NCBI GenBank assembly: GCA_917880885.1 | Contig: OU862917.1 | Span: 54,234,727 to 54,298,726 of the forward strand | Direction: 5' to 3' | From: Limnephilus marmoratus | Lineage: Eukaryota > Arthropoda > Insecta > Trichoptera > Limnephilidae | Length of the DNA stretch: 64,000 nt | In this document: positions 14,985-62,694 of the stretch, in pieces | Layout: the number at the start of each line of letters is the position of its first letter | How positions within the stretch are numbered: position 1 is the stretch's first letter | Notes under the pieces: model-generated | What the model was told of the DNA's origin: nothing | The model's input: only the letters and a program-made list of their open reading frames with translations | The model's database searches: none | Translations under genes and position numbers: made by a program

Positions 14985-16140
14985 GCAATTTTATTTTTTG
15001 TTTATTTTTTATTTTTTTGTTTTTTTTTTGTTTATTTAGCACAATATATTATACATTTATATCTATACATTATTTATTAAATTTTGACTGCCCAACTAGG
15101 AGTATTATCCCGTTTTAGGACAGTCAAATAATTATGGGTATGAACATGTGGAGAATGATTTGTACAAAAAGAAATAAAATTGCTGAAATAAAAATAAGAG
15201 AAAGAATATAAAATAAAATAATAAAAAAAGTTTAAAATATAGTACCTAACTGTTATTTGTTTAGCATAGCAAAAGAAAAAAAAAGAGAAGAGAAAGAATA
15301 AAATAAAGTTTTATTTTTCGATGTACATTTGTTACTTTTAATTTTAAATTTTTTTGCTACTGGTTTCGACACGTTCGTATCATTAACGAGCAAACTTAAG
15401 TTTTAAGTTTGCTCGTTAATGATACGACGTGTCGAAACCGGTAGCAAAAAAATTTAAAATTAAAAGTAACAAACTTAAGTTTACTCGTTAATGATACGGA
15501 CGTGTCGAAACCGGTAGCAAAAAAAAAATAAAATTAAAAGTAACAAATGTACATCGAAAAATAAAACTTATCAAAACAAAAATGTCTAGAAATTGTTTCA
15601 TAGTCAGTGCCCAAGAAATACAAAAAAAAAAAGAATAAAATAAAAATTAAATAACCAATTAAAACATAAAATAGCCGTGGATTGTTTCGCATAGTTGTTG
15701 AAATGATAAGCCTACATACATAAATATTTTGTATAAATATGAATAAAAAAGAGAAGAGATAAAATAAAATAAAATATGCAATTAAAACATAAGAATGACA
15801 GCTGATTTCTAATTTAAAAGTAATAGGTAAGTACATACAGATAGGTAGATACACATAATAATATAGATTAGAAGATAGGGGTATCTTTTACTTAGATCAT
15901 TTTTTGTTGGAATTTTTGTTGTTGTTTTTGGTTTTTGTTTGATTTTATTTTTTGTGTAGTAAAAGTTCACTCTCCTTTCTCCCTAATTGTTGAAACCAAG
16001 TAGTGGTCAATTTACGAAGAACACCTGTGCTTTCCTTTTTCCGAACATCAGGCATGAAGTTGTATAGTTTTGGACCTAAGAAAGTGAAGTGTCTTTGAGC
16101 GAGAGATGTTTTGGTTGTGAGTGTTACAATTTTAATTTTA
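14985..16140 (-). mobile_element. LINE 3' end, minus-strand copy
   Basis: Reading leftward: a C-terminal coding stretch ...TKTSLAQRHFTFLGPKLYNF, PDVRKKESTGVLRKLTTTWF, ...QLGRKESELLLHKK then stop TAA (15945-15947), followed by an AT-rich 3' UTR, the motif CTGTCCTAAAACGGGATAATACTCC (near 15120) and an A-rich tail at 14985-15040. It is the inverted counterpart of 19499-20715, with which it shares the ORF end, stop position and UTR end. A hammerhead-like foldback (15309-15567) sits in its UTR. 5'-truncated. Confidence 0.85.
15309..15567. mobile_element. Foldback with degenerate hammerhead-like motif
   Basis: Left arm from about 15309 (GTTTTATTTTTCGATGTACA) pairs with the right end at 15567. The core GGTTTCGACACGTTCGTATCATTAACGAG occurs in the left arm inverted, and twice in the right arm directly (about 15410-15452 and 15480-15520). 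Read rightward, ATGATAC(G)GACGTGTCGAAACCGGT retains GAAA, the following CCGGT and an ATGA, but the CTGA part is TTAA, so the catalytic core is degenerate. The arm is partly duplicated. Confidence 0.55.
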
Positions 16141-17990: not shown

Positions 17991-18958
17991 ATATAGGATT
18001 TTACTATTACTATTTTACTATTTGTGCGGGCCGCACAAATATCCGCCGCGCGCCGCAGTTTGACGACCACGGATTATTAGAGAGTACACTTTTACACATA
18101 ACTGCATTCTCGCTCAATTTTTGATTTTTCGGAGATGTCTGACTAATCAATTGGACGATCGGCATTTGTAGGCAAGGAATAACACATCGCGGTTTTATAA
18201 CTTGCGTCTGTAGTTTTTTTTTTACCCAACAGAGTTAGCTATCATGACCTCAGGAGTTCAGGAGAAAAGCAGTGTGTTCATGCCTTTCTTATGGCAAGAG
18301 CAGCATAAAATATTTTTTTTCGCCGGGTACCTCTCAACTTTCTTACCCCCCCCTATTCCCCGCTTCATCTAACCGGAATTCCTTATGTGTGGGTGCCAAA
18401 GCTCCATTGGGTCTAAAATCATCTCATTTTCACACAAAAATATTCTGTCACTTTCTAACATTCTTTACCAAATTTGATGACGATTATCGTCTGCACGAAT
18501 TGACTTTGAGCCATTGTGTGAATCATAGTATCATTTACATTGGCGTTAAACCGAGCTCAAAGTTCGTCACCCTTGGGTCCAGAATTTCTTTATTTTTTCA
18601 CCTCCCCCCCCCCCCCTCCTTCCGCCGATACAGGCTTCTCCCGAAAACCTCCCCCACGGCGCAAGACTTATCATTGGACAGGGTGGCCAAATACGACAAT
18701 ATTATCACGGTAATAAGTAAAAAGTCAAGATTTTTTAGATATTTCGAGGATGTGAGAGAATTTTTATAGCTGACCTAAGAAAGTTCAGAAATTGTTTTTT
18801 CTTGTGCATAATTGACGTTAATTTATTATTTACGAAATATTTTTTAATTTCCTTGCATTATTTCTCGGTAAGGTGTAACCCATTCAATATTTGGGGTGAA
18901 ACAGTAAGAGTACCCCACAGAATAGAGAATGTGTTGTCACAATCATTTTCTTAGTTAA

Positions 18959-19416
18959 GATGAAGTCATAGTAAATAATGCAAAATCATATGTTTTTGTT
19001 TTGAAAATTTGATCGCTTAGAAGTATTGTAGATGCTTCAATTAAATATTGCGTGTAGAACATACCTTGGCCCTTAAAAATATCGGTCATTTTTTTTATAA
19101 GTTTTTTAATAAGCCTATAAAAAAATAAAGTATGAGGTCTAAAAAACACACTTTCAAGTCCAAACTCTCCTATTTATAAACCCCTTTTCGGATATGGTTT
19201 TATTGTGTAATGTGGCAAATTCAGTTTATTTTATAATAATCGCAAAAAAAGTTGATATTTACACCCAATCTTCCCAAAATAAAATAAAATATGCATTTTC
19301 GCGTTGATATTTTACAATACGGCCGCTAGTCGATGAATTCGGTTATTCAAAGTGACCCCTATGGCGTCCACCGAAGAACTACTGTCCACGGCACAATAGT
19401 GAACTAGTGGATCGCC
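18959..19416 (+). mobile_element. TTAA-flanked repeat, copy 1 (458 bp)
   Basis: Runs from GATGAAGTCATAGTAAATAATG to GAACTAGTGGATCGCC between TTAA tetranucleotides at 18955-18958 and 19417-19420. It is nearly identical to 62001-62571 after removal of the insertion there, and both copies end exactly at TTAA. That suggests piggyBac-like TTAA-targeted mobility. I see no convincing terminal inverted repeat and no ORF for a transposase. Confidence 0.7.
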
Positions 19417-19498
19417 TTAATAGGTTTAACCGGAAATAAAGCATTTTAGACCACATAAAAATTCAAATTGGGCCTGGGTTAATAGAATCGTATAAATC

Positions 19499-25947: not shown

Positions 25948-26160
25948 TTATCCTGATACGTTTTTAGATTTTCACGGCCAAAATTATTTTCGTTATTAGT
26001 TTTTGGGGTGTTTTGCCGTGTTGCGCTACTTCATTCTTTAGCCAACGTTTCGGACAACGTTACAGTGTCCATCATCAGGGTAGATGTGTTGTGAATTTTT
26101 ATAACACCCCAAAAACAAATAACGAAAATACTTTTGGCCGTGAAAATCTAAAAACGTATC
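25948..26160. mobile_element. Hammerhead foldback element, family D
   Basis: Outer inverted arms: left 25957-26010 (TACGTTTTTAGATTTTCACGGCC...TTTTTGGGGTGTT) pairs with right 26102-26158 (AACACCCCAAAAAC...GGCCGTGAAAATC...). The left arm continues through GCGCTAC...TTTAGCCAACG into a minus-strand hammerhead core (26048-26078). The right arm lacks its ribozyme half. Homologous to 34297-34520, 40340-40545 and 53735-54065. Confidence 0.7.
26048..26078 (-). ncRNA. Hammerhead ribozyme core (family D)
   Basis: On the minus strand: CTGATGA (26078-26072), then stem II GGACA pairing with TGTCC around loop CTGTAACGT, then GAAA (26051-26048) followed by CGTTGG. All invariant core bases are present. Stem III would be a minimal ACGT palindrome and stem I is weak, so activity as a monomer is doubtful. 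Confidence 0.6.
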
Positions 26161-26255
26161 ATCCATTTTACTGTTCAAGAACGATCATTGTTCACATTGA
26201 CGCACATTCAATAACGAAAATTGTCCACTTTACTATTCAGAACGTTGATTGTCAC

Positions 26256-27307: not shown

Positions 27308-27616
27308 ATTGTCGCTCATTCATTTGTGACACTCGGCTTTCTAGCCCTGTGACGATTTTAGATAAGTTTTTTCTCGGCACTGAAAGCGATATTGTATATT
27401 TTAGATACATACAAAATTTCCTGCAATGGCATTCATAACTACATTTTTTTTACATTTGACGGTCTCGCATTGAACTCTTCAATGTGTATCTTTGGTAAAA
27501 ATTAAAAACAGATATTTCCTTTAGATATATTACTGTTTTTTTTTTTAGTAATAGTTCTTAAATTGTCTCGCGCGAGTTTTCGAAACCTCTTTGACGATTT
27601 TGAAAAAAAAAGAAAT

Positions 27617-27709
27617 GGTATAAGCTTTCCCTGACGAAGGAACGTTTGTTCCAAAACCGGTCGGATTTGCATAAGTGGTTTATACAAAGTTGAATTATTT
27701 CATTTTTCT
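27617..27709 (+). mobile_element. Small hammerhead element, family 1 (93 bp)
   Basis: Homologous along its whole length to the element at 62333-62440 (reverse strand there): TATAAGCTTTCCCTGACG..., hammerhead, GGATTTGC, TAAGTGGTTTATACAAAGTT and ATTATTTCATTTTTCTA. Flanked by AAAAAGAAAT at 27607-27616 and 27710-27719, a probable 10-bp target duplication, though low in complexity. Confidence 0.75.
27631..27662 (+). ncRNA. Hammerhead ribozyme, family 1, core-mutated
   Basis: CTGACGA (27631-27637), stem II GGAAC/GTTCC with loop GTTT (27639-27652), then AAAA instead of GAAA (27653-27656), then CCGGTC (cleavage expected after C27662). The G12-to-A change removes the general-base guanine, so this copy is predicted inactive. 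Confidence 0.75.
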
Positions 27710-27719
27710 AAAAAGAAAT

Positions 27720-31387: not shown

Positions 31388-32228
31388 ACATAATTTGACT
31401 TCCTCCGTAGTCGAGGAAATCCAAGGGTTCAAATCCCGGCGTGCGCAAGTAAACTTCATTTGATTGATTTGTTGTGTTCCACTATTTAATCGTTTAAAAT
31501 TAAGTTTCGGCAAAAAAAAAAATAGTTTCGGCAGATTTTCTGCCGAACCTTCGGCTGCACCGAAACTCTGCAAAAGATCTCAATCAATGGTAAATTTAGT
31601 CTTAAGAATGTTATGATTGTAAACGCAATTAAATTAAAATACTCAATTAATGAGGTCCTTCCTTTATAATGATTGCACATAAATATTGATTTTTGACAAA
31701 TTTTTGTTCCAAGCAGTAGTTGACATGTTTGTTAATTTTTAGTAAAAATTCACATACTCCAATTTTTGCTTTTTTATATCATTTAACACATATTAACTGT
31801 TTGTATAAATGTAAAAAATAAGCCAAACTTCAGTAAATAATAGATTTTTAACATGTCTAAAAAGTTTCGGTTTCGGTAGAAAATCCTGTTTCGATCGGAC
31901 ACTAAAAATAATATAAGATATATTAGCGTCACTTTCCAGAGTGGAAAGTGCCGCTCTCTCTCAGTATCTCTATATCGCCCTGGTGTAAGACCAGTAGAAA
32001 TACTCTCAGTATCGCCCTGGTGTAAGACCACCATACAGATTTGAAACGTTGCTTTAAATGGCTTTAGCCGTGTTTGGTGACCAGATCTGAATAGCCAGGT
32101 ACTTCCAAACCTTCCTGTCCCACCTTCTCACATTCAGCCTCACATACACCAATTGGGGATGCCGAAGTTTCGCTGACTCCTGGCGGTTGGGAGCTGTTGG
32201 GACCCATGTGCAGTTGTCACATAAAAAA
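31388..32228 (+). repeat. SINE family B copy with tRNA-like head, interrupted
   Basis: Head with B-box-like GGGTTCAAATCCC (31426-31438), linker CAAGTAAACTTCATTTGATTG...TGTGTT, then an insertion (about 31504-31908) rich in TTTCGGCAG/CTGCCGAA foldback motifs. The SINE then resumes at GCGTCACTTTCCAGAGTGG, CGCCCTGGTGTAAGACCA (duplicated), TTTGAAACG, GCCGTGTTTGGTGACCAGATC and GGGATGCCG..GCAGTTGTCACATAAAAAA. It preserves the order head, linker, body. Confidence 0.7.
31504..31908. mobile_element. TTTCGGCAG foldback insertion in a SINE
   Basis: Left end has repeated TTTCGGCA and the hairpin GCAGATTTTCTGCCGAACCTTCGG; right end has GTTTCGGTTTCGGTAGAAAATCCTG. It lies between the linker and body of a family-B SINE. 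No transposase. Exact borders are uncertain. Confidence 0.5.
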
Positions 32229-32838
32229 AAACAGTACCGATACTGAAATTAAACAATTTAAAATTCTAATTATGGTTTTAATACGTATTAAATTAATATG
32301 CATAGTTTAATATGTCATTCGCTTAAAAGTAAATTGCGTTTGTGGGTGAATAAGGAATTGGAGATATTTATTTAATAATTTCTGTGATCAATCATCGTGA
32401 CAAGGTAGAGTAAATAGCACGAATGTAACTCCCTTAACTTGTACAAAGAAAGATGACAATGTAGAACGAATTGGGTGAATTTTTAGGTAATTAGGTCCTA
32501 TATCGGTAGTCCGCTTCGGCCGCCCTGGAAATATCCCGAGAATGACCGCTTTTGTATTTACCCGTTCGGCGTGGGCGGCGGTAGGCGGCGCGGTGGGCGG
32601 AATGCGAGAATTGGATATGCGCGGAATTGGATTCTGAGACAAGAGGGGGCAAGTGGCCCCCATCCAAGCAACCACCCTCCTGGAGACGACGACGTTTCCC
32701 CCGGTCTTCTGGAATTATTGAATACACAAATCGAATCACTATCATCATCATTATTGAAGAATGAACGTAAAACCTCTCAGAAGCTGGATGCTCAATGCTC
32801 ACCCCAAAGCGGCTAAAATTAAAGAAATGTATTTTTAT

Positions 32839-33560: not shown

Positions 33561-34358
33561 TATGCGGGGGAGTAAGAGTGACAATGAAACCAACATTTTG
33601 GTAAAATACCTATTGTTAAAATTTCTCGGGGACCGGGTTTCCTCTTAAGAATCATTTATAACGGTGATTACACCGATTACTCTTAAGATTGACGCAATTC
33701 GTGCTACTATTAATTATTTTCGATTCGTGCTATAACTCCTATTTTTCTTTTTACAAGTTAAGGTGATGCACCACGTCCTGTAAAATTCGGGATCAGGCCG
33801 CTAACAATAACACTGTTTATTTAGATGGTGACAAAATTTATATATCCGCTTAACACCAGCCGCTTGTTTTGATTTATTCTAGAAATTTTGTGTTTTATTT
33901 TATTTTGCGAAGTTCAGGCACAAATATTTATATGTTTTACGATCATTTTCTTGGGAATTTAATTTCCCACATTGTACAATAAAACCATAATTGAAAAGGG
34001 GCTAGTAAGTAAGTAGGATGTTTTGAACGAAAAAGATTTTTTTTATAGGCCTGATACGTTATTTTTTTCTGGGCTTATAAAAAGACTAACCAAAGAATAC
34101 TCGATTATTTCAAGGGCAAAATATGCGTTCTATCGCAGTATTTAACTAAAATATTTCTAAGCGATCTAATTTTAAAACCCAAAACCCGTGAGTTTACATC
34201 GCTTAGTAGTGGCCATAATCCTGCGTACTTTTATGTTATTTACACGATGATTGATCATGATCACGCAAAAAATAAGTAAATAAACGTAATTTAAAAATTT
34301 TCGTTATATGTTTTTGGGGTGTTGTGCCGTGTTGCGCTACCTCCTTCTTTAGCCAACG

Positions 34359-34389
34359 TTTCGGACATCGTTGCAGTGTCCATCATCAG
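34359..34389 (-). ncRNA. Hammerhead ribozyme core, left arm
   Basis: Mirror image of the right-arm core: CTGATGA at 34389-34383, stem II, GAAA at 34362-34359, read on the minus strand. Intact core bases. Confidence 0.65.
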
Positions 34390-34427
34390 GGCAGATCCGG
34401 CAGATCTGTAGATCTGCCGGATCTGCC

Positions 34428-34458
34428 CTGATGATGGACACTGCAACGATGTCCGAAA
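34428..34458 (+). ncRNA. Hammerhead ribozyme core, right arm
   Basis: CTGATGA 34428-34434; stem II GGACA (34436-34440) with TGTCC (34450-34454); GAAA 34455-34458; then CGTTGGC. GGC (34463-34465) can pair with GCC (34425-34427) as a 3-bp start of stem I. Core intact; helix I and III short. Confidence 0.65.
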
Positions 34459-34663
34459 CGTTGGCTAAAGAAGGAGGTAGCGCAACACGGCACAACACCC
34501 CAAAAACATATAACGAAAATGCTTCTGGCCGTGAAAATCTTAAAACGTTATTTAAAAATGTTTGTCCCAATTAATTATAATGAATAAATCTATTTCTCTG
34601 CAACTGAATTTTGCCCATTTTTAAATTTATTTGGAAAACAATATTAAATCCCCGTATTTTTAA

Positions 34664-36210: not shown

Positions 36211-37093
36211 GCAGCATTAATTAATTTTTGATCTGTGACCTCTGGCACTTTGGAGATTTAGGTCACAATCTCATTTCTGTAGTGAACCATCGTACTTTTA
36301 AATGTCGATTGATCTTTCAATAAATCAAACATTTTTTACCGATTAAAAAAACATTTCTAGCTCTAGCGATGCCTGATAGTAACCACATACTAATATGAAC
36401 ATAATAAGTAGTTTTGTATAAAAGTTTAATTTAAGTATCGCGTTTCACAAAATTTACTCTTTAATACGTCAACAAATTTTACTGAGCATATTTCACGCAT
36501 TTTTTGCAATGTTCTCTAGCGTATAATCTATCACTGCCACTAAAATCGACGACGGAAAATAATATTTCACACAGTTTAAAAATTTGGTATAATAATACAT
36601 TATTAACCCCTCAGGCCTCAGGCATATTTTGTAAGAGAAGTTCCGCTTTGCAATAAAATCCAAATAAATGGAATTATTTTAAAAGGTTCTGAAATACGCT
36701 TTCAAATTTTATAATTCGAAATAAACATATTATAATTTTTGAAACATAAAAAGTTGAATGAACAAACATATGAGATAGTTTTAAAAATGGCTCACCTCAC
36801 TTTTTTTTTACTAAAATTACTTATAAAAAAACGCACATTTTTTATTAGACAATATTACAAACGTTATCGTCACATCCCTTTTTTGTCGTTTGATGTGAAA
36901 ATAATTAATGAAAAATTCCCAAAGTTGCATAATTTTTTTGTTTTCAAATTGCGGTCGGAAACTTTGGTTTCATAAAGGTGCACATTTTAATTTTTCGAAG
37001 GAAGCTTCTTCGGAAAGGTTTTCACTTTGTGATGGCATTATTTATTTTAATGAAAAGACAAATAACTTTGTTTACATCACTTTTATTTATTTT

Positions 37094-37350
37094 AGAGTGG
37101 AAGATACTCTCAGTATCGCCCTGGTGTGAGACCACCATTCAGAATTGAAACGTTGCTTGAAATGGCTTTAGCCGTGTTTGGTGACCAGATCTGAATAGCC
37201 AGGTACTTCCTCACCTTCCTCTTCCCTATCTCCTTCCCCTCCCCACTACCGTCAGCCTCACAACATACCCCAATTGGGGATGCCATAGTCCCACTGGCTC
37301 CAGACGGGAGCAGTTGGGACTCTTGTGCGGTATTCATGTAAAAAAAAAAA
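37094..37350 (+). repeat. SINE family B copy inside hammerhead foldback
   Basis: GAGTGGAAGATACTCTCAGT, CGCCCTGGTGTGAGACCACC, CAGAATTGAAACGTTGCTTG through CCCAATTGGGGATGCCATAG, ACGGGAGCAGTTGGGACTCT and TATTCATGTAAAAAA tail. No head; 5'-truncated insertion ending in poly-A. Confidence 0.85.
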
Positions 37351-37417
37351 AAATTTATACACAATCAACATGTTTTGTGAACGATGTTCACATTTGATCA
37401 AATGTATACATTTGATC

Positions 37418-37450
37418 CTGATGATGTGAACATCGTTCACGAAACATGTT
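37418..37450 (+). ncRNA. Hammerhead ribozyme, family 2
   Basis: CTGATGA 37418-37424; stem II GTGAAC/GTTCAC with ATC triloop (37426-37440); GAAA 37441-37444; then CATGTT. Minimal stem III (AC/GT closing AT), cleavage expected after T37450. GAT (37451-37453) pairs with ATC (37415-37417) to begin stem I. The mirror copy in the left arm has AAAA in place of GAAA and has lost CTGATGA. Confidence 0.75.
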
Positions 37451-37544
37451 GATTGTGCATAAATAAAAGTGATGTAAACAAAGTTACTTGTCTTTTCATT
37501 AAAATAAAAAAAAAAGTGTAGATACATTTTAATTTTTTTATAGT

Positions 37545-39252
37545 AATACCTCACAAGAGTCTCAGCTGCTCCCGTCTGGAGCCAGTGAGACTATGGCATC
37601 CCCAATTGGGGTATGTTGTGAGGCTGAAGGTAGTGGGGAGGGAAAGGAGATGTGGAAGAGGAAGGTGGGGAAGTACCTGGATATTCAGATCTGGTCACCA
37701 AACACGGCTACAGCGCCGGATCTGCCATACGTTCAAAATCGTGCAAAAACCTGGCGCCAACTCCGAAGGGGCGCCGTGAGAAAATAAATGTTGTATTAAA
37801 ATTTTGTCATAATATTCCCTGAATCGTTTCAAAATTACCCATAGTACGAAATAATTATTACACTCTAGCAACACTTTCCAAAGAAACAGAATGCGCATGC
37901 ATCAGGTTGGTATCAACGGCTTACGAATTTATAGTCAGTTACAGAATTTTTTTACAAATTCCATATATTTAGTTTAAACGTAAGATCTATTTTTCCATAT
38001 ATCTTTTACCGTCTTTTACGACGAATGGGTGCGATCCAAATTCAATAACCAATCACAGCGCCGTACTTTTGTTCTAGAGAATCAAACAAACCGACTTCGC
38101 CTTTCAAAATGCTGAAAATTTTAGGTAGCGTACGCTCGCTATTGTTTTATTTTGTACGATGAGAAGGTAATTAAAGACCATTTTCTTATGAAATCTTCAG
38201 TCAATTCCATTAACAAAAGCATCGCACGGTTTGTAGGATTTGCAGATTGCAACTTGTTGACAGTTTCATTGATTTGACATTATTTGAAGTTCGTTAAATG
38301 TATAATTAATTTCTATTAGATTTGTTACTTTATGGTGTAGGTGTAAGCGTCTTTCGTGAGCCGTTGATACCATACGTCAGTGTTTAGTGTTTGTATGGTG
38401 TTTGTTCGCTCAACACAGAACACAGGGGAAATTGGAAATGCAAGGTACAAATTTGAGGTTATATTCTTATTAGATTTTAAATTTTATAACTAAATTTCTA
38501 TTGGTTGTTAGAGGTTATAAAAGTACTGTGGATTACAATGAATAGAATAATAATTTTTAAAAAAACTTTCAGGCTCGCAGAATCTAAAACGTAGAATTAA
38601 AGAGCAGAGTGATATAAAAAAAACTTGTTTCCATTGGGAATTTTTTTATTCCAATTTCTCCAGCACCGTTAAAAAACGATGTCCCTTGCAATGACGTTAC
38701 AATGGTCCCGAGAACATCTAAACAGATATCTTTCGCACAAATTCCTACGATCGAATTATTAGAAGATAAAAATAACGTTACTGATAGCAGTTTAAATTTA
38801 ATTCTGTTTTCAGAGCTTGAATTGAAAGATCCGGATGCTGGCCAAAGTTTTCTCAAAATTATTTATATGTCTTGATTTTATTTAATAAATTAGTGTAAAA
38901 AAAACAATTAAATTAAAAAATTAAAAAATTGGGGTGAACGAATTTTTAAAATGTAGGGGGGGGGGGCGCCATCGGTACCTGCACAGGGCGCCAGATTTCG
39001 TAGATCCGGCCCTGCACGGCTAACGCCATTTCAAGCAACTTTTCAATTCTGAATGGTCGTCTTAGACGCGATACTGAGAGTATCTTCCACTCTGGAACGT
39101 GACGCAAATATAGTATACATTATTTTAAATGAATTAATTGTGAAATAACACAAACTAATCAAATCAAATTTATTTGCCAACGCCGGGATTCGATCCCCCG
39201 ACCTTCGGATTGCGAGTCAAGAGCCTTACCGCTAGACCACGCCGGCCGTCAG
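37545..39252 (-). repeat. SINE family B, full-length copy with tRNA-like head, split by a hAT
   Basis: Reading leftward: tRNA-like head (39252-39180) with A-box TGGTCTAGCGGTAAGGC and B-box GGATCGAATCC, whose outer arms GCCGGCG and CGTTGGC can pair over 7 bp; linker AAATAAATTTGATTTGATTA, then TTATTTCAC; body CCAGAGTGGAAGATACTCTC, CCATTCAGAATTGAAAAGTTG up to 39023; then a hAT insertion (37711-39014); body resumes at 37710 (CGTGTTTGGTGACCAGATCT..., CCCAATTGGGGATGCCATAG, GAGCAGCTGAGACTCTTGTG) and ends near 37545. It defines family B as a tRNA-derived SINE of about 460 bp. Confidence 0.85.
37711..39014. mobile_element. hAT-type element inside a SINE (1304 bp)
   Basis: Terminal repeats CAGCGCCGGATCT (37711-37723) and AGATCCGGCCCTG (39002-39014). 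Perfect 8-bp duplication CACGGCTA (37703-37710 and 39015-39022) within the SINE sequence. GGCGCC motifs recur near both ends. A plus-strand open stretch at about 38618-38874 (VSIGNFFIPISPAPL... to KIIYMS, then stop) is not identifiable with confidence; no catalytic or dimerisation motif is seen. Non-autonomous. Confidence 0.85.
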
Positions 39253-40295: not shown

Positions 40296-40339
40296 GGGAT
40301 AGACGGTTTTACAAACCATTTTAGGCGTTAGGTATGATT

Positions 40340-40545
40340 TTAGATTTTCACGGCCCAAGTGTTTTTGTTATTTATTTTTGAGGTTTTATACCGTGTTGGG
40401 CTGCCTCCTTCTTTAGCCATCGTTATAAGCCTTCTTAGTTTCGGACAGCGTTACAGTGTCCGTCATCACTCATCACGCTGTCCGAAACTAAGAAGGCTGG
40501 AAACGTTAGCTTAAAAAGGAGGTAGCGCAAAAATAAAAATTAAAA
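40340..40545. mobile_element. Hammerhead foldback relic, family D
   Basis: Family-D flank GATTTTAGATTTTCACGGCCC, TTTTGAGGTTTTATACCGTGTTGGGC, CCTCCTTCTTTAGCC, then a minus-strand core with GAAA (TTTC near 40440) and stem II intact, but CTGATGA read as GTGATGA, which breaks the invariant C3. The right arm (TCATCACGCTGTCCGAAACTAAG) is truncated. Predicted inactive. Confidence 0.65.
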
Positions 40546-41089: not shown

Positions 41090-41427
41090 CGCAAATAAAT
41101 TTTATTTGATTAATTTGTGTTATTTCATATTTAATTCATTCAAAATAAAATGTGTTATATTTGCGGCACGTTCCAGAGTGGAAGATATTCTCTGTATCGC
41201 CCTGGTGTAAGACTACCATTTAGAATTGAAACTTGCTTGAAATGGCTTTCGCCGTGTTTTGTGTCCAGATCTGAATGGCCAGGTACTTCGCCACCTTCGT
41301 CTTCCTCATCTTCGTCGCCTCCCCACTACCTTCAGTCTCAGAACATATCTTAAATAGGAACGCCATAGTCTCACTGGCTCCAGACGGGAGCAGCTAGGTC
41401 TCTTGTTAGGCATTTGTATAAAAAAAT
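41090..41427 (+). repeat. SINE family B copy (linker plus body)
   Basis: Starts GCGCAAATAAATTTTATTTG, TGTGTTATTTCATATTTAATTC linker, then CACGTTCCAGAGTGGAAGAT, CGCCCTGGTGTAAGAC, GCCGTGTTTTGTGTCCAGAT and GACGGGAGCAGCTAGGTCTC, ending TGTATAAAAAA. The tRNA-like head is mostly missing. A short inverted fragment of the same family follows at about 41450-41510. Confidence 0.8.
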
Positions 41428-41949
41428 TAATACCGCACAAGCTTCATCATGTTCACGGAGTATGGGGGAGGGGAAGGAGATGGTAAAGAGGAATGCGGAG
41501 AAGTAGATAAACCGTAGAATCTACCGCTTATGATCCCCTTTCTAAAATGTCTCAATGTCTACCGCTCCGTCTAATTCTTTTTCCTGTAGTGTTTTTTTTA
41601 CATGATTTCCTGATCATTCGGAAATGTTCACAGCAAAATATTAGTTATAAAACATTTTAATGATTTTTTCGTAACGGTTTATTAATTCCGAACCACTAAG
41701 CAACAGGAAATACTCGCTTCGTTGGGAATTTAGCGCTTAGCCAGTAATAAATTAAGAAAGTTATCATAGAAATTTTATAGAAGTAAAATCTCGCAAAAAT
41801 ACACATTCTGCTGCTACACAGCTGTTGTCTGTGTTCTGGCATTTGCAAGCGTCAGTTAAGACAGAGGATTTTCTTATCACCAAAAGAAAAAATAATATAT
41901 AGTGAATAACATATCACTTTGTTTAAACCACTATATTATACACAGTATC

Positions 41950-41990
41950 TACATGTTTCGATAAAAATGTTATCTTCATCAGGATATGTC
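41950..41990 (-). ncRNA. Hammerhead ribozyme, family 3, left arm
   Basis: Minus strand: CTGATGA (41982-41976), stem II GATAA/TTATC with a larger loop (one closing pair lost), GAAA (41959-41956), CATGTA, then GATAC pairing with ATATC except at the last position. Core intact, peripheral helices slightly weaker than in the right arm. Confidence 0.75.
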
Positions 41991-42057
41991 AATATAAAGA
42001 AAAATAAATGACAAACAAGTATAGACAAATTAGAATAAACTATAACATAGACAAAAT

Positions 42058-42111
42058 ATACATATCCTGATGAAGATAACATTGTTATCGAAACATGTAG
42101 ATATTGTGTAT
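42058..42111 (+). ncRNA. Hammerhead ribozyme, family 3, right arm (best-formed)
   Basis: CTGATGA 42067-42073; stem II GATAAC/GTTATC with ATT loop (42075-42089); GAAA 42090-42093; CATGTA with minimal stem III, cleavage expected after A42099. Stem I: GATAT (42100-42104) pairs with ATATC (42062-42066), then a 3-nt bulge and GTAT (42108-42111) pairs with ATAC (42058-42061). All invariant bases are present, in type I topology with stem I open. Confidence 0.8.
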
Positions 42112-42150
42112 AATATAGTGGTTTAAACAAAGTGATATGTTATTTATTAT

Positions 42151-43475
42151 ACATATAATTAATGATGCCACAAAGTAATTTTGCGAAGTTTGAAGAAGGA
42201 AAAATAATAATATTATAAATGATCTTCCCAAGGATTTTCCGGCACTGGGTACTGGGTAAGAGGATAACGCATGAAAATAAAATACATCTGAAATGCTTCT
42301 TTTTTCCGTCACCATGACCTTGTCTTTCTCTTCACCGTGGGAGCGATGCATCATCTGCCAGTAATGATGTCTCTTGGGTGGTAAATGTAAATAAGCGTCT
42401 CTCGTTACCGCTAAATGTAGCGGTATTATCCTCTAGCGTTATTTTATCACTGCGTTAGCTTAGTTCTGTTACCGGTTGGGTGGCCCTCTTGATATCGATA
42501 CCGAATTTCTTTCCGGTACTTCCTCTGCCTACCCCCACCTGTCAGGGTCTCCCTTGTTGTGCTAAAACGAAACCATTCAGAAGAAATTATTTCATATTTT
42601 AATTTTTTAATACTCAACATTCTCTCAATAGTTATTTTTTTTTTTTGTTGAAAGTTATTTTCGCACGACATTTCTATTCTCTCCTAGGAATAGCTGTTTC
42701 ATAGAATTTGAATAATAACAATTTTAACTAGAACTTTCACAGAACTTGTGCATTTTAACTCTGAAATTTGATGACTACTTGTTCAAGTTATGTAAACAAC
42801 TGACCCTTAGATATTAAGATATTGTACTCCTATTTAACCGAGGAACACATTATGACCTAAATATACCTCAATGAAAAAATTGCGTAACGCCAGAGCTCAT
42901 CAGGTTTATGATGCTTCAAATCACAATTTGCTCATTAGATTTTCTGCTTTATAATAATTATCCAGAGGGAAACCACGAAGCAGTTTTTGAACGAAGGCTT
43001 TTTTTTATATTTTTACTATAGGACAGCTCTAAATTCCAAAGTAACGTGTGGCTGCTATATCGTTGGTCCAATGCTAAAGTCGCGAATCCGCATTTTTGCC
43101 AGTTTTAAGTTAAATATACCAAAAATTTTCATTTCAAATGTACCATACCCTGCCATTTTTTTATTACCCTTTATTACGTACAAACTACAAATCAGATTTT
43201 TGAATATTAATGCAAGAGAAGCTGGTTTAGTAACAATATGAATCGATTTATGATATGACTATACTTCAAACCTCAATATCTCCGAATGTAGTTTTTGCGG
43301 ATTCGCTAGGTACTTTGGCATTTACCCTACGATATAATGTAAAGGTTTCTTAACTATCACAATCATCAGGCTTATATTATCCATTAATTCACGAAGACCT
43401 CCAAACTTCTCTTCTATGTAACAAAATAATATTCTGTATGAGCGTTCTTGGCGGTTCCTGAGCCACCACCACCAC
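42151..43475. other. Unannotated intron stretch
   Basis: AT-rich; no recognised repeat, exon or RNA. Short ORFs on both strands lack recognisable motifs. Confidence 0.4.
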
Positions 43476-53734: not shown

Positions 53735-54065
53735 AGTATGATTTTAGATTTTCACGGCCGTAAGTGTTATAGTGATTTATTGGGGGGGGGGGGTTTACGC
53801 CGTGTTGCGCTACAATTTCTTCCTTCTTTAGCCAGCATTTTGGACAGCGTTACAGTGTCAGTCATCAGCGTAGATGTGTAATCGACAATGGTAAAGTTTG
53901 TGATACCATACATAAGCACACACTTTACACCTTACGTGTGTAATCTATACATATATTACAAATCTGCCTTGATGGTGGACACTGTAACACTGCCCGAAAC
54001 GTTGACTAAATAAGGTAGTGCAACGCAGTATAATACCCCAAAAATAAATCATTATAATTGCTTTC
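53735..54065. mobile_element. Hammerhead foldback relic, family D
   Basis: Left arm: GATTTTCACGGCCG, a poly-G run, CGTGTTGCGCTAC, CTTCTTTAGCC and a minus-strand core with CTGATGA but AAAA for GAAA. Right arm: TTGATGGTGGACACTGTAACACTGCCCGAAACG then TAGTGCAACGC, ATACCCCAAAAATA, with the other core half damaged. The two arms carry complementary defects. Confidence 0.65.
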
Positions 54066-57390: not shown

Positions 57391-58082
57391 GGCAGGATTC
57401 GAATGTGTATAAATTTAAATACAAGAATTTGACTGATTCAAGATTTTCGTTTTCCAAGATCCAATCAATTGAACCATTTCATTTTAACTCCGCACTTTAA
57501 AAAAAAAAATCCCTTCAGATACTAACTTAATGATTACAAACAAAAAGATAGCAAATGTGGAAATTAATTATTTTTCTTCGGATAATGGAGGGAGTTGATC
57601 GAAGTCAAAGTGGGATGCTGCACTGATGCCGTGTATTCGGGAGTCACTTGATTCACCGCAGATGTGCACATTAAATAGTATTGATATCACGTTTAAAAGA
57701 AATTTGTTGTTATTTTGTTTTAGGAAAAATCCACATATGATGCAACCATTCAAAGCAATAAAAAAAGAAAAATTAAAAAAAGATAGCAAAAATTTGTATA
57801 TAATTTTATATTACTGTGAAATCAAACCTTTTTCAAATAGCCAAATATTATCAAATGCGAAATTTGAATAGCCAAGAAAAAAGATATTGAAGAGTCCTAC
57901 ATTTTTAATAAATTGCAAACTTATTATTTATTATATACCTACTCGTACTAACCAGCGGCAGATACGTAAAAATGTGGTCGGACTTCTTGACAAATCAGTA
58001 CCAATTTTGAAAATGACAATTAAAATATTGTATTCGTATAGGTAGTTCTTACTTAATTTTTGTATGTAGTTCTTACTTTTTA

Positions 58083-58350
58083 TGTTAATACCTCACAAGA
58101 GTCCCATTTGCTCCCGTCTGGAGCCAGTGAGACTATGTCATCCCCAATTGGGATGTGTTGCGAGGCTGAAGGTGGGAAGTGGGGAGGGGAAGGAAATTTG
58201 CAGGAGGAAGGTGGGGAAGTACCTGACTATTCAGATCTGGTCACCAGACACGGCTAAAGCCATTTCAAGCAACGTTTCAATTCTGAATGGTGGTGGATTT
58301 CAACCTGCATCCTTCGGATCGCGAGACGAGAGCCTTGCCCCTTGACCATC
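58083..58350 (-). repeat. SINE family B copy with tRNA-like head joined directly to the body
   Basis: Reading leftward: tRNA-like head (58350-58283) with A-box-like TGGTCAAGGGGCAAGGCTC and B-box-like GGTTGAAATCC, immediately followed by CACCATTCAGAATTGAAACG, GTTGCTTGAAATGGCTTTAG, GTGTCTGGTGACCAGATCTG, ending GAGCAAATGGGACTCTTGTG. The linker found in other copies is absent. Confidence 0.75.
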
Positions 58351-59856: not shown

Positions 59857-60153
59857 TAAAGGTATTTGACAATTTATTGTTACAGAGTGATTTCGTAAAG
59901 GCCTGTAAAAAGCATTTACTCCTTTTTTACGCATTGTTTATTATAATAACAAGGAAACTGAAAATTGAACACGGAACCAAGCGACGCAGAGTAGGACGTC
60001 TTCCCCGTCGCAGGCGGGGCGTAACTGATACGAAATGGGTGTGCCAAGTTTGTAGTCCTTAGGTGGACGGCATAAGGTTCACTTTAAAAATTCAAATTCG
60101 TTGAGTATTGATTGTGTCAAAAATATTGATTGCTTCAATGGGCGATTGATGAT

Positions 60154-60291
60154 TGATTGATGTCAAAAATAAGAACGAGAAATTGCATATTTTATTTAAT
60201 GATTGATGTCAAAAATAAGAACGAGAAATTGCATATTTTATTTAATGATTGATGTCAAAAATAAGAACGAGAAATTGCATATTTTATTAAT
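60154..60291 (+). repeat. 46-bp tandem array, three units
   Basis: TGATTGATGTCAAAAATAAG plus GAACGAGAAATTGCATATTT plus TATTTAA, three copies with no mismatch until the last bases. No spacers; a recent minisatellite. 60292-61405 is otherwise AT-rich without features. Confidence 0.9.
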
Positions 60292-61405
60292 TATTATAAT
60301 GTCTAAATTTAATAAGAATGTTAAAAAAATCTGAAATATATTAGTTTGTAAGTGCGCAAATAAATACACAAATGGACCAATTTTCGTCAAGAATCACATG
60401 TACGTACATATTTTTTAATGATTTTATTGAAACTAAAATGAAAATTCTAAAACAGGCGTTTGCTAGATAATGTATTGATTTATTTTACTGCATGATTATA
60501 TTATTTGAAATGGGTGTGGTATAATACAAAATCTTTTTTGAAAATTTAACAAATCTGCCAACAACCTATGGAATAACCTTATTATACTAAAAATTTTAAA
60601 AAAATTCTCAAAATTTATTACATGCGAATGCTAGATAAAAGAACAATCTTTCGAAATCCATTTATAATTTTTTGTGGAAAAGAGTCAATACGTCTAAAAT
60701 CTGATTTGAAAATGACATATTTCTGGTTTTATCTGGTAATGCCCTCTTAATTGAAGCATCTATAATACTTCTGAGCGATTAAATTTTCAAAACAAAAATT
60801 CAAGATTTTGTATGGTTTTGCATTATTTCGCGTGGCCTTATCTTAAATAGAATTTAGGTTTAGTTCCATTCTGTGACACAATAAAATTACATCTTTTTAT
60901 TTTGATGTGATGAAATTTGATGAAACATCATCCAATCGAGCACCATCTGTCGATGCATCCCACACACTACACTACTACGTCATGGCGATTATGGTGACAC
61001 GGCAATGATATCAGCCGATAAAGCGATAAAAAACAAGTTGCCACGGGGTTTCCCGATAACTAACCTTCCGTAACAAACGACGTCCTTATGGCGGCGGCGG
61101 CCACGTCTGCTGACTGCTACTGCTACTGCTGCCTCTGTTTCATGTTTTCTATGCGTCATCCCATTGTGTGCCTAGAACTGGCAGACCAAGCAAACAACAA
61201 CCGCATCCCATGCCGGATTCATTTTACTTAGTCACTATAAAACGAGTTTTGTAAGATCCGCTATTATACCTATGATTCCCTTGCAACCAACCTAGTGATT
61301 CAACGATAAGCAAGGAAACTGCAGACTATAAAAATCTAAACAATGTTTTATATATCACTATAATATAAAGCAAACGTCTATACATTATCTTTTTTTACAT
61401 TAACT

Positions 61406-61545: not shown

Positions 61546-62332
61546 ATTATTCGTGATTTTCTATGTTGTTCCCTCAGTCTCAGAACAAATTAAATGGCTT
61601 TACGATCATATACCAATTTAAAAAATGTATAGGTATATGGTATTAACCCACGCAATAGAATGAAAATTCGATGTTTTGCCGGTTTTTTTTAATGAAAATT
61701 TTTGCAAAATATCGCTCCAAGTACTTGAATTTGGAAGACACTTTAGTAACAATTCGACGGAATTCCAGTTTTCTGGTTTTAGGTAGCTTGTTTTTATGTT
61801 TGAATAATATTTTCTATCATGTTAACAAACAGTTTTCATTCTCCATAAAGAAAAACGTTAATTTTGTACTTCTTATCTTCTAATCTTTAAAAATGTCAAA
61901 TCTGGTATAATAATTTATTGTAACTAAAATAATTTATTCTTTGTTTATCTCTAGCTCCTGTGCAATTTGTGACTAAAAAAAACTCAAAAAATCATTTTAA
62001 GATGAAGTCATAGTAAATAATGCAAAATCATATGTTTTTGTTTTGAAAATTTGATCGCTTAAAAGTATTGTAGATGCTTCAATTAAATACTGCGTGTAAA
62101 ACATACATTGGCCCTTAAAAATATCGGTCATTTTTTTATAAGTTTTTTAATAAGCCTATAAAAAAATAAAGTATGAGGTCTAAAAAACACACAAGTCCAA
62201 ACTCTCCTATTTATAAACCCCTTTTCGGATATGGTTTTATTGTGTAATGTGGCAAATTCAGTTTATTTTATAATAATCGCAAAAAAAGTTGATATTTACA
62301 CCCAATCTTCCCAAAGTAAAATAAAATATGCA

Positions 62333-62440
62333 TAGAAAAATGAAATAATTTAACTTTGTAAAAACCACTTATTTGATGCGCAAATCCGACCGGTTTCGGA
62401 ACAAACGTTCCTTCGTCAGGGAAAGCTTATACTTAAACTT
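62333..62440 (-). mobile_element. Small hammerhead element with 12-bp target duplication, family 1
   Basis: 108 bp inserted between identical ATAAAATATGCA copies (62321-62332 and 62441-62452). The empty site is visible in copy 1 of the host repeat (near 19280-19305). Minus-strand order: TAAGTTTAAGTATAAGCTTTCC, hammerhead, GGATTTGCGC, TAAGTGGTTTTTACAAAGTT, AAATTATTTCATTTTTCTA. No ORF. Boundaries are defined by comparison, not guesswork. Confidence 0.9.
62380..62427 (-). ncRNA. Hammerhead ribozyme, family 1, intact core
   Basis: Minus strand: CTGACGA (62419-62413; position 7 may be any base), stem II GGAAC/GTTCC with GTTT loop (62411-62398), GAAA (62397-62394), CCGGTC (cleavage expected after the base at 62388). 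Stem I: GGA (62387-62385) with TCC (62422-62420), a U-rich internal loop, then GC with GC (62381-62380 and 62426-62425). All invariant bases present. Confidence 0.8.
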
Positions 62441-62694
62441 ATAAAATATGCATTTTCGAGTTGATATTTTACAATACGGCCGCTAGTCGACGAATTCGGT
62501 TATTCAAAGTGACCCCTATGGCGTCCACCGAAGAACCTGTCCACGGCACAGTAGTGAACTAGTGGATCGCCTTAAAGACTGTTTTAAAAAGCCCCAAAAT
62601 CTCAGTTTTCAAGACTCAATGTTAGGTCAGACGATAAGTATGTACTGTATAAGATAAGCATTTGGTTTTCTTTCGAATTATTTTTCGTGATAAA

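Follow-up and report, generated by a model that had tools for sequence, protein, structure and literature searches.

The 107-bp insertion at positions 62334-62440 (minus strand) of the 64-kb window, that is, of the whole stretch of DNA analysed here, is very likely a side product, lacking an ORF, of a Penelope-like element (PLE) that is abundant in this genome, and not a new element. Alignment with its empty site and sequence shared with PLE copies at loci L061, L063 and L064 identified the insertion as a single tail-less copy of the pseudo-LTR of this PLE (family F1). We consider it highly probable that the machinery of an autonomous PLE made this ORF-less insertion, with reverse transcription (RT) starting internally near the 5' end of the PLE mRNA and running off at that end.

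Borders, empty site and host repeat

Read in the RNA sense, the unit has its 5' end at 62440 and its 3' end at 62334. End-to-end alignment of the host repeat carrying it (62001-62571) with a copy without it (18955-19420) revealed 120 bp in the former as the sole difference, in agreement with the initial annotation, which had described the two TTAA-flanked repeats as colinear apart from 120 bp. The annotation divided this difference into a 12-bp duplication and a 108-bp unit; a duplication and an insertion were indeed found, the exact sizes being 13 bp and 107 bp. The target-site duplication, ATAAAATATGCAT, is present at 62321-62333 (left copy, 13 bp) and 62441-62453 (right copy, 13 bp), and the empty target ATAAAATATGCAT occurs as a single copy at 19284-19296. 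A third host-repeat copy (33882-34208, minus strand; 70% identical) is uninterrupted at the insertion point and also lacks the unit. The claim of an empty site within the same window stands.

A second F1 unit of 93 bp, again a single tail-less arm and with the same 3' end, is found at 27617-27709 (plus strand). The 10-bp duplication proposed for it as probable was found as AAAAAGAAAT at 27607-27616 and 27710-27719. When 1500 random intervals were given 12 bases of play per end, chance flanking repeats of at least 13 bp appeared in 2 and of at least 10 bp in 8; the 107-bp insertion is confirmed as real and not a product of chance. Both F1 units of the window end in ...TTTCATTTTTCT in the RNA sense and begin with AAGTTTAAGTATAAGC (62334-62440) and GGTATAAGC (27617-27709), and this common 3' end with unlike 5' ends indicates a fixed 3' end and a 5' end that varies by a few bases.

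The host repeat (18955-19420 and 62001-62571) has TTAA at both ends, and terminal inverted repeats were not evident by eye. Its 3' part contains a series of restriction-site-like words (CGGCCGCTAGTCGACGAATTC, ACTAGTGGATC), which we take to resemble a cloning linker. At 60052-60846 host-repeat-like pieces occur on both sides of a tandem array of 46-bp units (60154-60295), and these units are themselves similar to part of the host repeat.

The source Penelope-like element

At L064 a pseudo-LTR 97% identical to the unit plus tail is followed by an ORF of 811 amino acids, its ATG lying within the tail, and then by a tail-less 3' pseudo-LTR. Pfam analysis of this protein revealed RVT_1 (E 6.6e-10) and GIY-YIG (E 7.2e-5), both over the curated cut-offs. 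Its relatives number 33 at E up to 1e-20, with 23-41% identity, and the one named with its species is an uncharacterized Schistocerca gregaria protein. Locus L063 consists of head-to-head 5'-truncated PLE copies with frames of 283 and 197 amino acids, each ending in an F1 pseudo-LTR; one arm is tailed and the other is not, the target duplication is 14 bp, and the pseudo-LTR shows 100% identity with the unit plus tail over positions 8-147. At L047/L061 a GIY-YIG frame is followed 85 nt later by an F1 pseudo-LTR with tail. Overall, the unit plus tail matches the pseudo-LTRs of L061, L063 and L064 at 96-100% over 98-140 nt, which bears out the link to Penelope-like elements drawn in the initial annotation. 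Tandem arrangement was found at L064, L065 and L066, where the 3' part of another PLE copy lies directly before the 5' pseudo-LTR.

At least 129 GIY-YIG (PF01541) matches are present in the genome, with 150 of 5,110 candidates scored, and a search with the endonuclease protein gave 24,985 first-look candidates, the 150 scored being 94-100% identical. A second PLE family, with 27 matches in the GIY-YIG loci L031-L060, has one 3' end at ...TTTCATT and the other past a longer tail starting AATAAAATGGTGCCACAAAG; the two-end anatomy is therefore not peculiar to F1.

A single ORF with RT and GIY-YIG, pseudo-LTR homology and a minimal hammerhead, all features of canonical endonuclease-containing PLEs, were found here, together with the optional 30-40-nt tail, short target duplications and head-to-head pairs; the window unit itself is tail-less and single-armed. 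The available parts of the reports on canonical GIY-YIG PLEs, namely Poseidon of Anolis carolinensis (PMC11167929) and the elements of Adineta vaga (PMC3846280), likewise describe one ORF with RT and GIY-YIG, a minimal hammerhead in the pseudo-LTR, two internal RT starts that explain the 30-40-nt tail, tandem copies, head-to-head pseudo-LTRs with one tail, and short target duplications (the AT-rich look of the sites here is a judgement by eye, without background comparison). Solo pseudo-LTRs, as found here, are reported for Adineta (PMC3846280). The start of the ORF differs, being in the tail after the hammerhead here and at stem II in the Anolis element (PMC11167929). Short ORF-less head-to-head pairs with 5' AAGTAT repeats are present here and were not met in those parts of the two reports (PMC11167929, PMC3846280).

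Short, ORF-less copies across the genome

The genome assembly (1.63 Gb, 67 contigs) was searched with the unit, and 69 matches were obtained from 40 scored of 339 candidates. Since the query includes the short-form 5' end, the best matches, including loci L001-L030, over-represent short copies. Classification of these 30 loci revealed 22 two-arm head-to-head pairs, four single tailed arms (L002, L007, L016 and L025, of which L016 is one arm of the longer PLE pair L063), three single tail-less arms (L001, which is 62334-62440, L012 and L030) and one complex locus (L018). Most short copies thus consist of two head-to-head arms, together about 200-270 bp long, of which one has the 40-nt tail (22 of 30 loci, and 16 of 18 further loci). 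A continuation of about 40 nt, ATAATGGATAACCACAAAGTAATAGCTACATTCAAAAATA, is present on one arm in 27 of the 30 loci, and past this tail the loci diverge, save for a few copies of one insertion. Target duplications of at least 8 bp were found at 24 of the 30 loci (control 11/600) and at 14 of the 18 further short loci, a set without a control of its own.

The genome-wide search proposed in the initial annotation thus revealed many sites, mostly head-to-head pairs and mostly with duplications; the solitary tail-less unit, as present in the window, is a minority form (3 of the 30 loci). Exact pattern counts gave 28 short forms with two hexamers and 2,908 PLE-attached pseudo-LTRs (1,468 + 1,440) genome-wide, both counts missing variants and the former missing even the window copy, which reads AAGTTTAAGTATAAGC. 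With the unit matching the PLE pseudo-LTR and with these counts, the suggestion of a distinct minimal form was not upheld. The annotation would have abandoned its reading if the 108 bp always lay within a longer element; this is largely, though not always, the case.

At L018 (1501-1895) one inverted arm is followed by three direct F1 units with gaps of 4-13 bp, the only direct tandem in L001-L030. At L027 (930-1029) an F1-like unit, 78% identical, lies beside a young one, which suggests PLE subfamilies in succession. Scans for the F1 motif gave 0 places in the viral_contigs and 0 in the genome_contigs collections.

Fixed 3' ends and the one-tail pattern

Analysis of 58 arms from 32 loci (L001-L030, L061 and L063) revealed two 3' ends, with 29 arms tailed and 29 tail-less. 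In F1 the distance from the predicted hammerhead cut to the 3' end is 54 nt for tail-less and 94 nt for tailed arms, and in the second F1 unit of the window (27617-27709), which has an internal 7-base deletion, it is 47 nt. In F2 the distances are 56 and 87 nt in one pair and 58 nt in another. The tail is thus 40 nt long in F1 and 31 nt in F2. According to the available text on the Anolis PLE (PMC11167929), its cut is located at ORF position +26 and its RT begins 111-118 nt inside the ORF; the sequence separating the two RT start sites makes up the 30-40-nt tail. By analogy with that element, ends would be expected about 85-92 and about 45-62 nt past the cut; the outer F1 end (94) is slightly beyond the first of these ranges.

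Exactly one arm is tailed in all 23 two-arm head-to-head loci among the 32. Removal of L017, L019, L020 and L022, which are copies of the same insertions, left 19 of 19, of which L063 is a longer pair and the other 18 are short. The 18 further short-form loci, drawn from the exact matches to the short form, comprise 16 pairs, each with one tailed arm (16/16), and two single tailed arms; in two of these pairs (L109 and L120) the tailed arm has only a tail piece of 17-22 nt, which may be a chance match. Among PLE-attached pairs one tail was found in 17 of 19, and a duplication by simple search in 13 of 19, these 19 being all minus/plus neighbours within 1 kb among the matches listed on contig C1 only. 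Of the two exceptions, one pair is tail-less and the other has both tails and extends into the ORF on both sides, so that its ends are not insertion ends. Under a coin-toss expectation, at least 17 of 19 has p = 4e-4, and 17 or more of 18 has p = 7e-5.

In the available part of the Adineta vaga report (PMC3846280), the tail is described as an optional feature of one inverted pseudo-LTR. A tail on one arm is therefore already reported, and the possible novelty may lie in the strictness of the pattern. No description of this strictness or of a run-off origin was met in the open-licence literature, and we make no claim that either is unpublished.

Origin of the 5' ends

PLE-attached copies read TCAAATTAGTATAAGC where short copies read AAGTATAAGTATAAGC or begin near AGTATAAGC. 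At 29 of the 30 loci L001-L030, neither the endonuclease nor the 3' UTR of the PLE is present. A 6-nt slip of the cDNA end on the dinucleotide AG at an RNA end AGTATAAGC gives AGTATAAGTATAAGC, exactly the observed hexamer repeat. Among the 58 arms none has its start at position 54, where the hammerhead would cut; 52 is the closest start. From these sequences, the 5' ends of short copies appear to have arisen where RT ran off the 5' end of the mRNA, with no cleavage by the ribozyme, and the PLE mRNA is predicted, from DNA, to start at AGTATAAGC.

Ordinary 5' truncation, in which RT on a long PLE RNA stops early at or near the hammerhead, is the best surviving of the other explanations, and we regard it as unlikely. 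PLE copies shortened at other points are present (L061, L063), minus/plus PLE-attached neighbours are spaced from less than 40 bp to several kb, and 5 of the 58 arms begin inside the unit (at 44, 46, 52, 83 and 88). However, truncation predicts scattered starts in PLE sequence, whereas 53 of the 58 arms (four PLE-attached arm rows included) match from position 1-23, the second window copy (27617-27709) begins at the same point, and the short arms carry AAGTAT repeats instead of a continuation of the PLE 3' UTR.

The consistent 5' end of short copies, their many sites and their duplications of mostly 10-19 bp would also suit a separate non-autonomous family of minimal elements, similar to SINEs or retrozymes, with its own short hammerhead RNA and a borrowed PLE enzyme. 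This is improbable, as no separate lineage was found (the L063 pseudo-LTR being identical to the unit plus tail over the range given above) and the exact short form is far outnumbered by the PLE-attached form. Furthermore, the RNA of the Anolis PLE has to include the ORF from its first nucleotide to +172, according to the part of that report available (PMC11167929). This suggests that a copy ending at an internal start site, and so lacking this stretch of RNA, cannot be a template again and would be dead on arrival.

The hammerhead core and its fold

The minimal hammerhead core (CTGACGA, helix II, GAAA) of the insertion lies at 62394-62419 (minus strand). Along this strand CTGACGA is separated by one extra base from helix II (GGAAC/GUUCC), and GAAA and the palindrome ACCGGU follow. 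The cut is predicted after C, between 62388 and 62387, which leaves 53 nt of the insertion on the 5' side of the cut in the RNA and 54 nt on the 3' side. Helix III is represented by the loopless palindrome ACCGGU only, so a true helix III is absent. In the second F1 unit (27617-27709) AAAA replaces GAAA and the core is therefore broken. Perfect cores (CTGANGA, helix II of at least 5 pairs, GAAAC) occur 7 times in the window and once in 60 dinucleotide shuffles combined, and the seven represent three families, F1, F2 and F3.

Rfam hammerhead models gave no match at E up to 10 on 171 bp or at E up to 5 on the whole window. With regard to a Pol III promoter of the SINE type, which derives from a small RNA, no Rfam family reached the gathering score on the unit, and two weak matches are at chance level. 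For the F1 core, structures other than the hammerhead were predicted as best in both monomer and dimer, the imposed hammerhead fold having -7.8 kcal/mol and the best fold -11.4. Given the Rfam result and this best fold, self-cleavage by the F1 hammerhead is only possible, as judged by these models. The intact type I hammerhead core of the initial annotation is thus retained as regards the core bases, and not as regards the full fold, in view of the missing helix III and Rfam match.

The core without a real helix III, the non-coding location and the link to PLEs are shared with the dispersed minimal type I hammerheads of animals (Cervera and de la Pena 2014; Lunse et al. 2017; as cited in PMC7761336 and PMC6155905); in the present case it was also possible to define where the unit begins and ends, its empty site, its duplication and the PLE from which it came. 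In the part of the review consulted (PMC7761336), minimal PLE hammerheads are noted to be mostly dispersed in non-coding DNA, and their role is called a mystery. Metazoan non-LTR retrozymes, as described in the available part of PMC7229834, share the type I hammerhead, the lack of an ORF and retrotransposition; their repeats, of about 170-400 nt, are arranged in tandem and have canonical hammerheads, whereas a single 107-bp unit with a minimal hammerhead is found here. Assignment to the retrozymes was rejected on both points, as the unit is single (direct tandem units at L018 alone, 1 of 30 loci) and has the palindrome ACCGGU in place of a canonical helix III, with no Rfam match.

Self-cleaved or circular hammerhead RNA monomers as template, the metazoan retrozyme route, are very improbable: the core bases are present, and the absent helix III would fit action as dimers, as described for PLEs and newts in the available parts of PMC7761336 and PMC6155905, with ACCGGU as a putative dimer helix, but no arm begins at the cut, the unit is far under 170-400 nt, direct tandem units are confined to that one locus, and the imposed hammerhead is less stable than the best fold.

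Other hammerhead units in the window

Head-to-head pseudo-LTR-like pairs of families F2 and F3 were also found in the window. In the F2 pair at 34299-34549 the left arm ends 56 nt and the right arm 87 nt past the cut (31-bp tail), with a 10-bp duplication, ATTTAAAAAT; in the decayed F2 pair at 53739-54061 the left arm is tailed and the right arm ends 58 nt past the cut, with a 9-bp duplication, TTTCAAGTA. The F3 pair at 41895-42200 has its right arm tailed and its left arm tail-less (tail by eye, right border approximate), and the F3 pair at 37038-37511, split by another repeat, has its left arm tailed and its right arm tail-less (tail by eye, borders approximate). These four pairs have one tail each. 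The F2 pair at 25954-26161 is an exception to the pattern, with tails on both arms and a right arm lacking the hammerhead. A further F2 pair, decayed, lies at 40338-40530. The tail motif GTGGTTTWWACAAAGTT is common to F1 and F3, 6 of its 8 matches (up to 3 mismatches) being inside F1/F3 units, compared with a mean of 2.5 and a maximum of 6 in 100 shuffles.

A palindromic element, F4 (15306-15569), has two direct 74-bp units and a degenerate hammerhead-like core ending GAAACCGGTA; it was excluded from the counts. A pair related to F4 is present near the GIY-YIG match in L057. Another dispersed repeat forms a 188-bp inverted pair (37165-37352 and 37527-37714), one copy of which is within the left arm of the split F3 pair, and has more copies at 58077-58294, 41181-41426 and 32000-32231. 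A tRNA-like match (Rfam, 33 bits) at 39175-39246 (minus strand) is possibly a tRNA-derived SINE head. Pfam analysis of 95 of the 121 window frames (at least 75 amino acids, low-complexity removed) revealed no transposon domain, although shorter or decayed PLE pieces may escape such a scan; the sole match was a weak one to Ldh_2 (E 0.0056).

Proposed mechanism of insertion

The preferred reading, insertion by the machinery of the autonomous PLE, can be set out as follows. Its observed basis is the identity with the PLE, the two 3' ends, the target duplications, the one-tail pattern and the hexamer repeats; the steps of nicking and priming, and likewise run-off and slippage, are proposed after the biochemistry of the Anolis PLE. 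The PLE protein would nick AT-rich DNA and prime reverse transcription inside PLE RNA at one of two start sites just past the hammerhead, at the junction of pseudo-LTR and ORF, 54 nt (no tail) or 94 nt past the cut; the tail would consist of the first ORF codons, included when RT starts at the outer site. Where RT starts at the junction nearest the mRNA 5' end, it would copy about 100-140 nt before running off the template at AGTATAAGC, the predicted beginning of the RNA, and the inserted product would contain only the hammerhead plus tail. A 6-nt slip at the RNA 5' end would give the hexamer repeats of short copies. Priming would usually take place on both target strands, with a different start site used on each, and the outcome would be two head-to-head arms of which one is tailed. 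In the window copy (62334-62440) RT would have begun at the inner site and only a single tail-less arm would have remained; that this copy is of the less usual single tail-less form counts against the explanation. The hammerhead would be a passenger, the insertion ends not being set by the ribozyme. In vitro experiments on the Anolis PLE, in the parts of the report available (PMC11167929), found that both strands are cleaved and extended and that hammerhead mutants have no effect on insertion. RT starts were found there to be alike on both strands, a point that counts against the explanation.

We also propose, tentatively and as something short of an even chance, that PLE insertion is an ordered two-ended reaction, in which every event primes both target strands, with the outer RT start necessarily used on one and the inner on the other, so that the two halves of the RNA, or of the enzyme, would not be equivalent; the telomerase-related RT would in addition slip at the RNA 5' end and add short repeats there.

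Implications

This study describes a minimal hammerhead with exact borders, its empty site and its source element in the same genome, and with ends that lie near the RT starts known in vitro and away from the ribozyme cut. The near-strict one-tail pattern (19/19, 16/16 and 17/19) constitutes a testable constraint on how both strands of a PLE insertion are made, and assays that read each end separately are blind to such pairing. If the ordered two-ended reaction proposed above is true, the dispersed minimal hammerheads of animal genomes would be largely by-products of it and would not be evidence of ribozyme-driven mobility.
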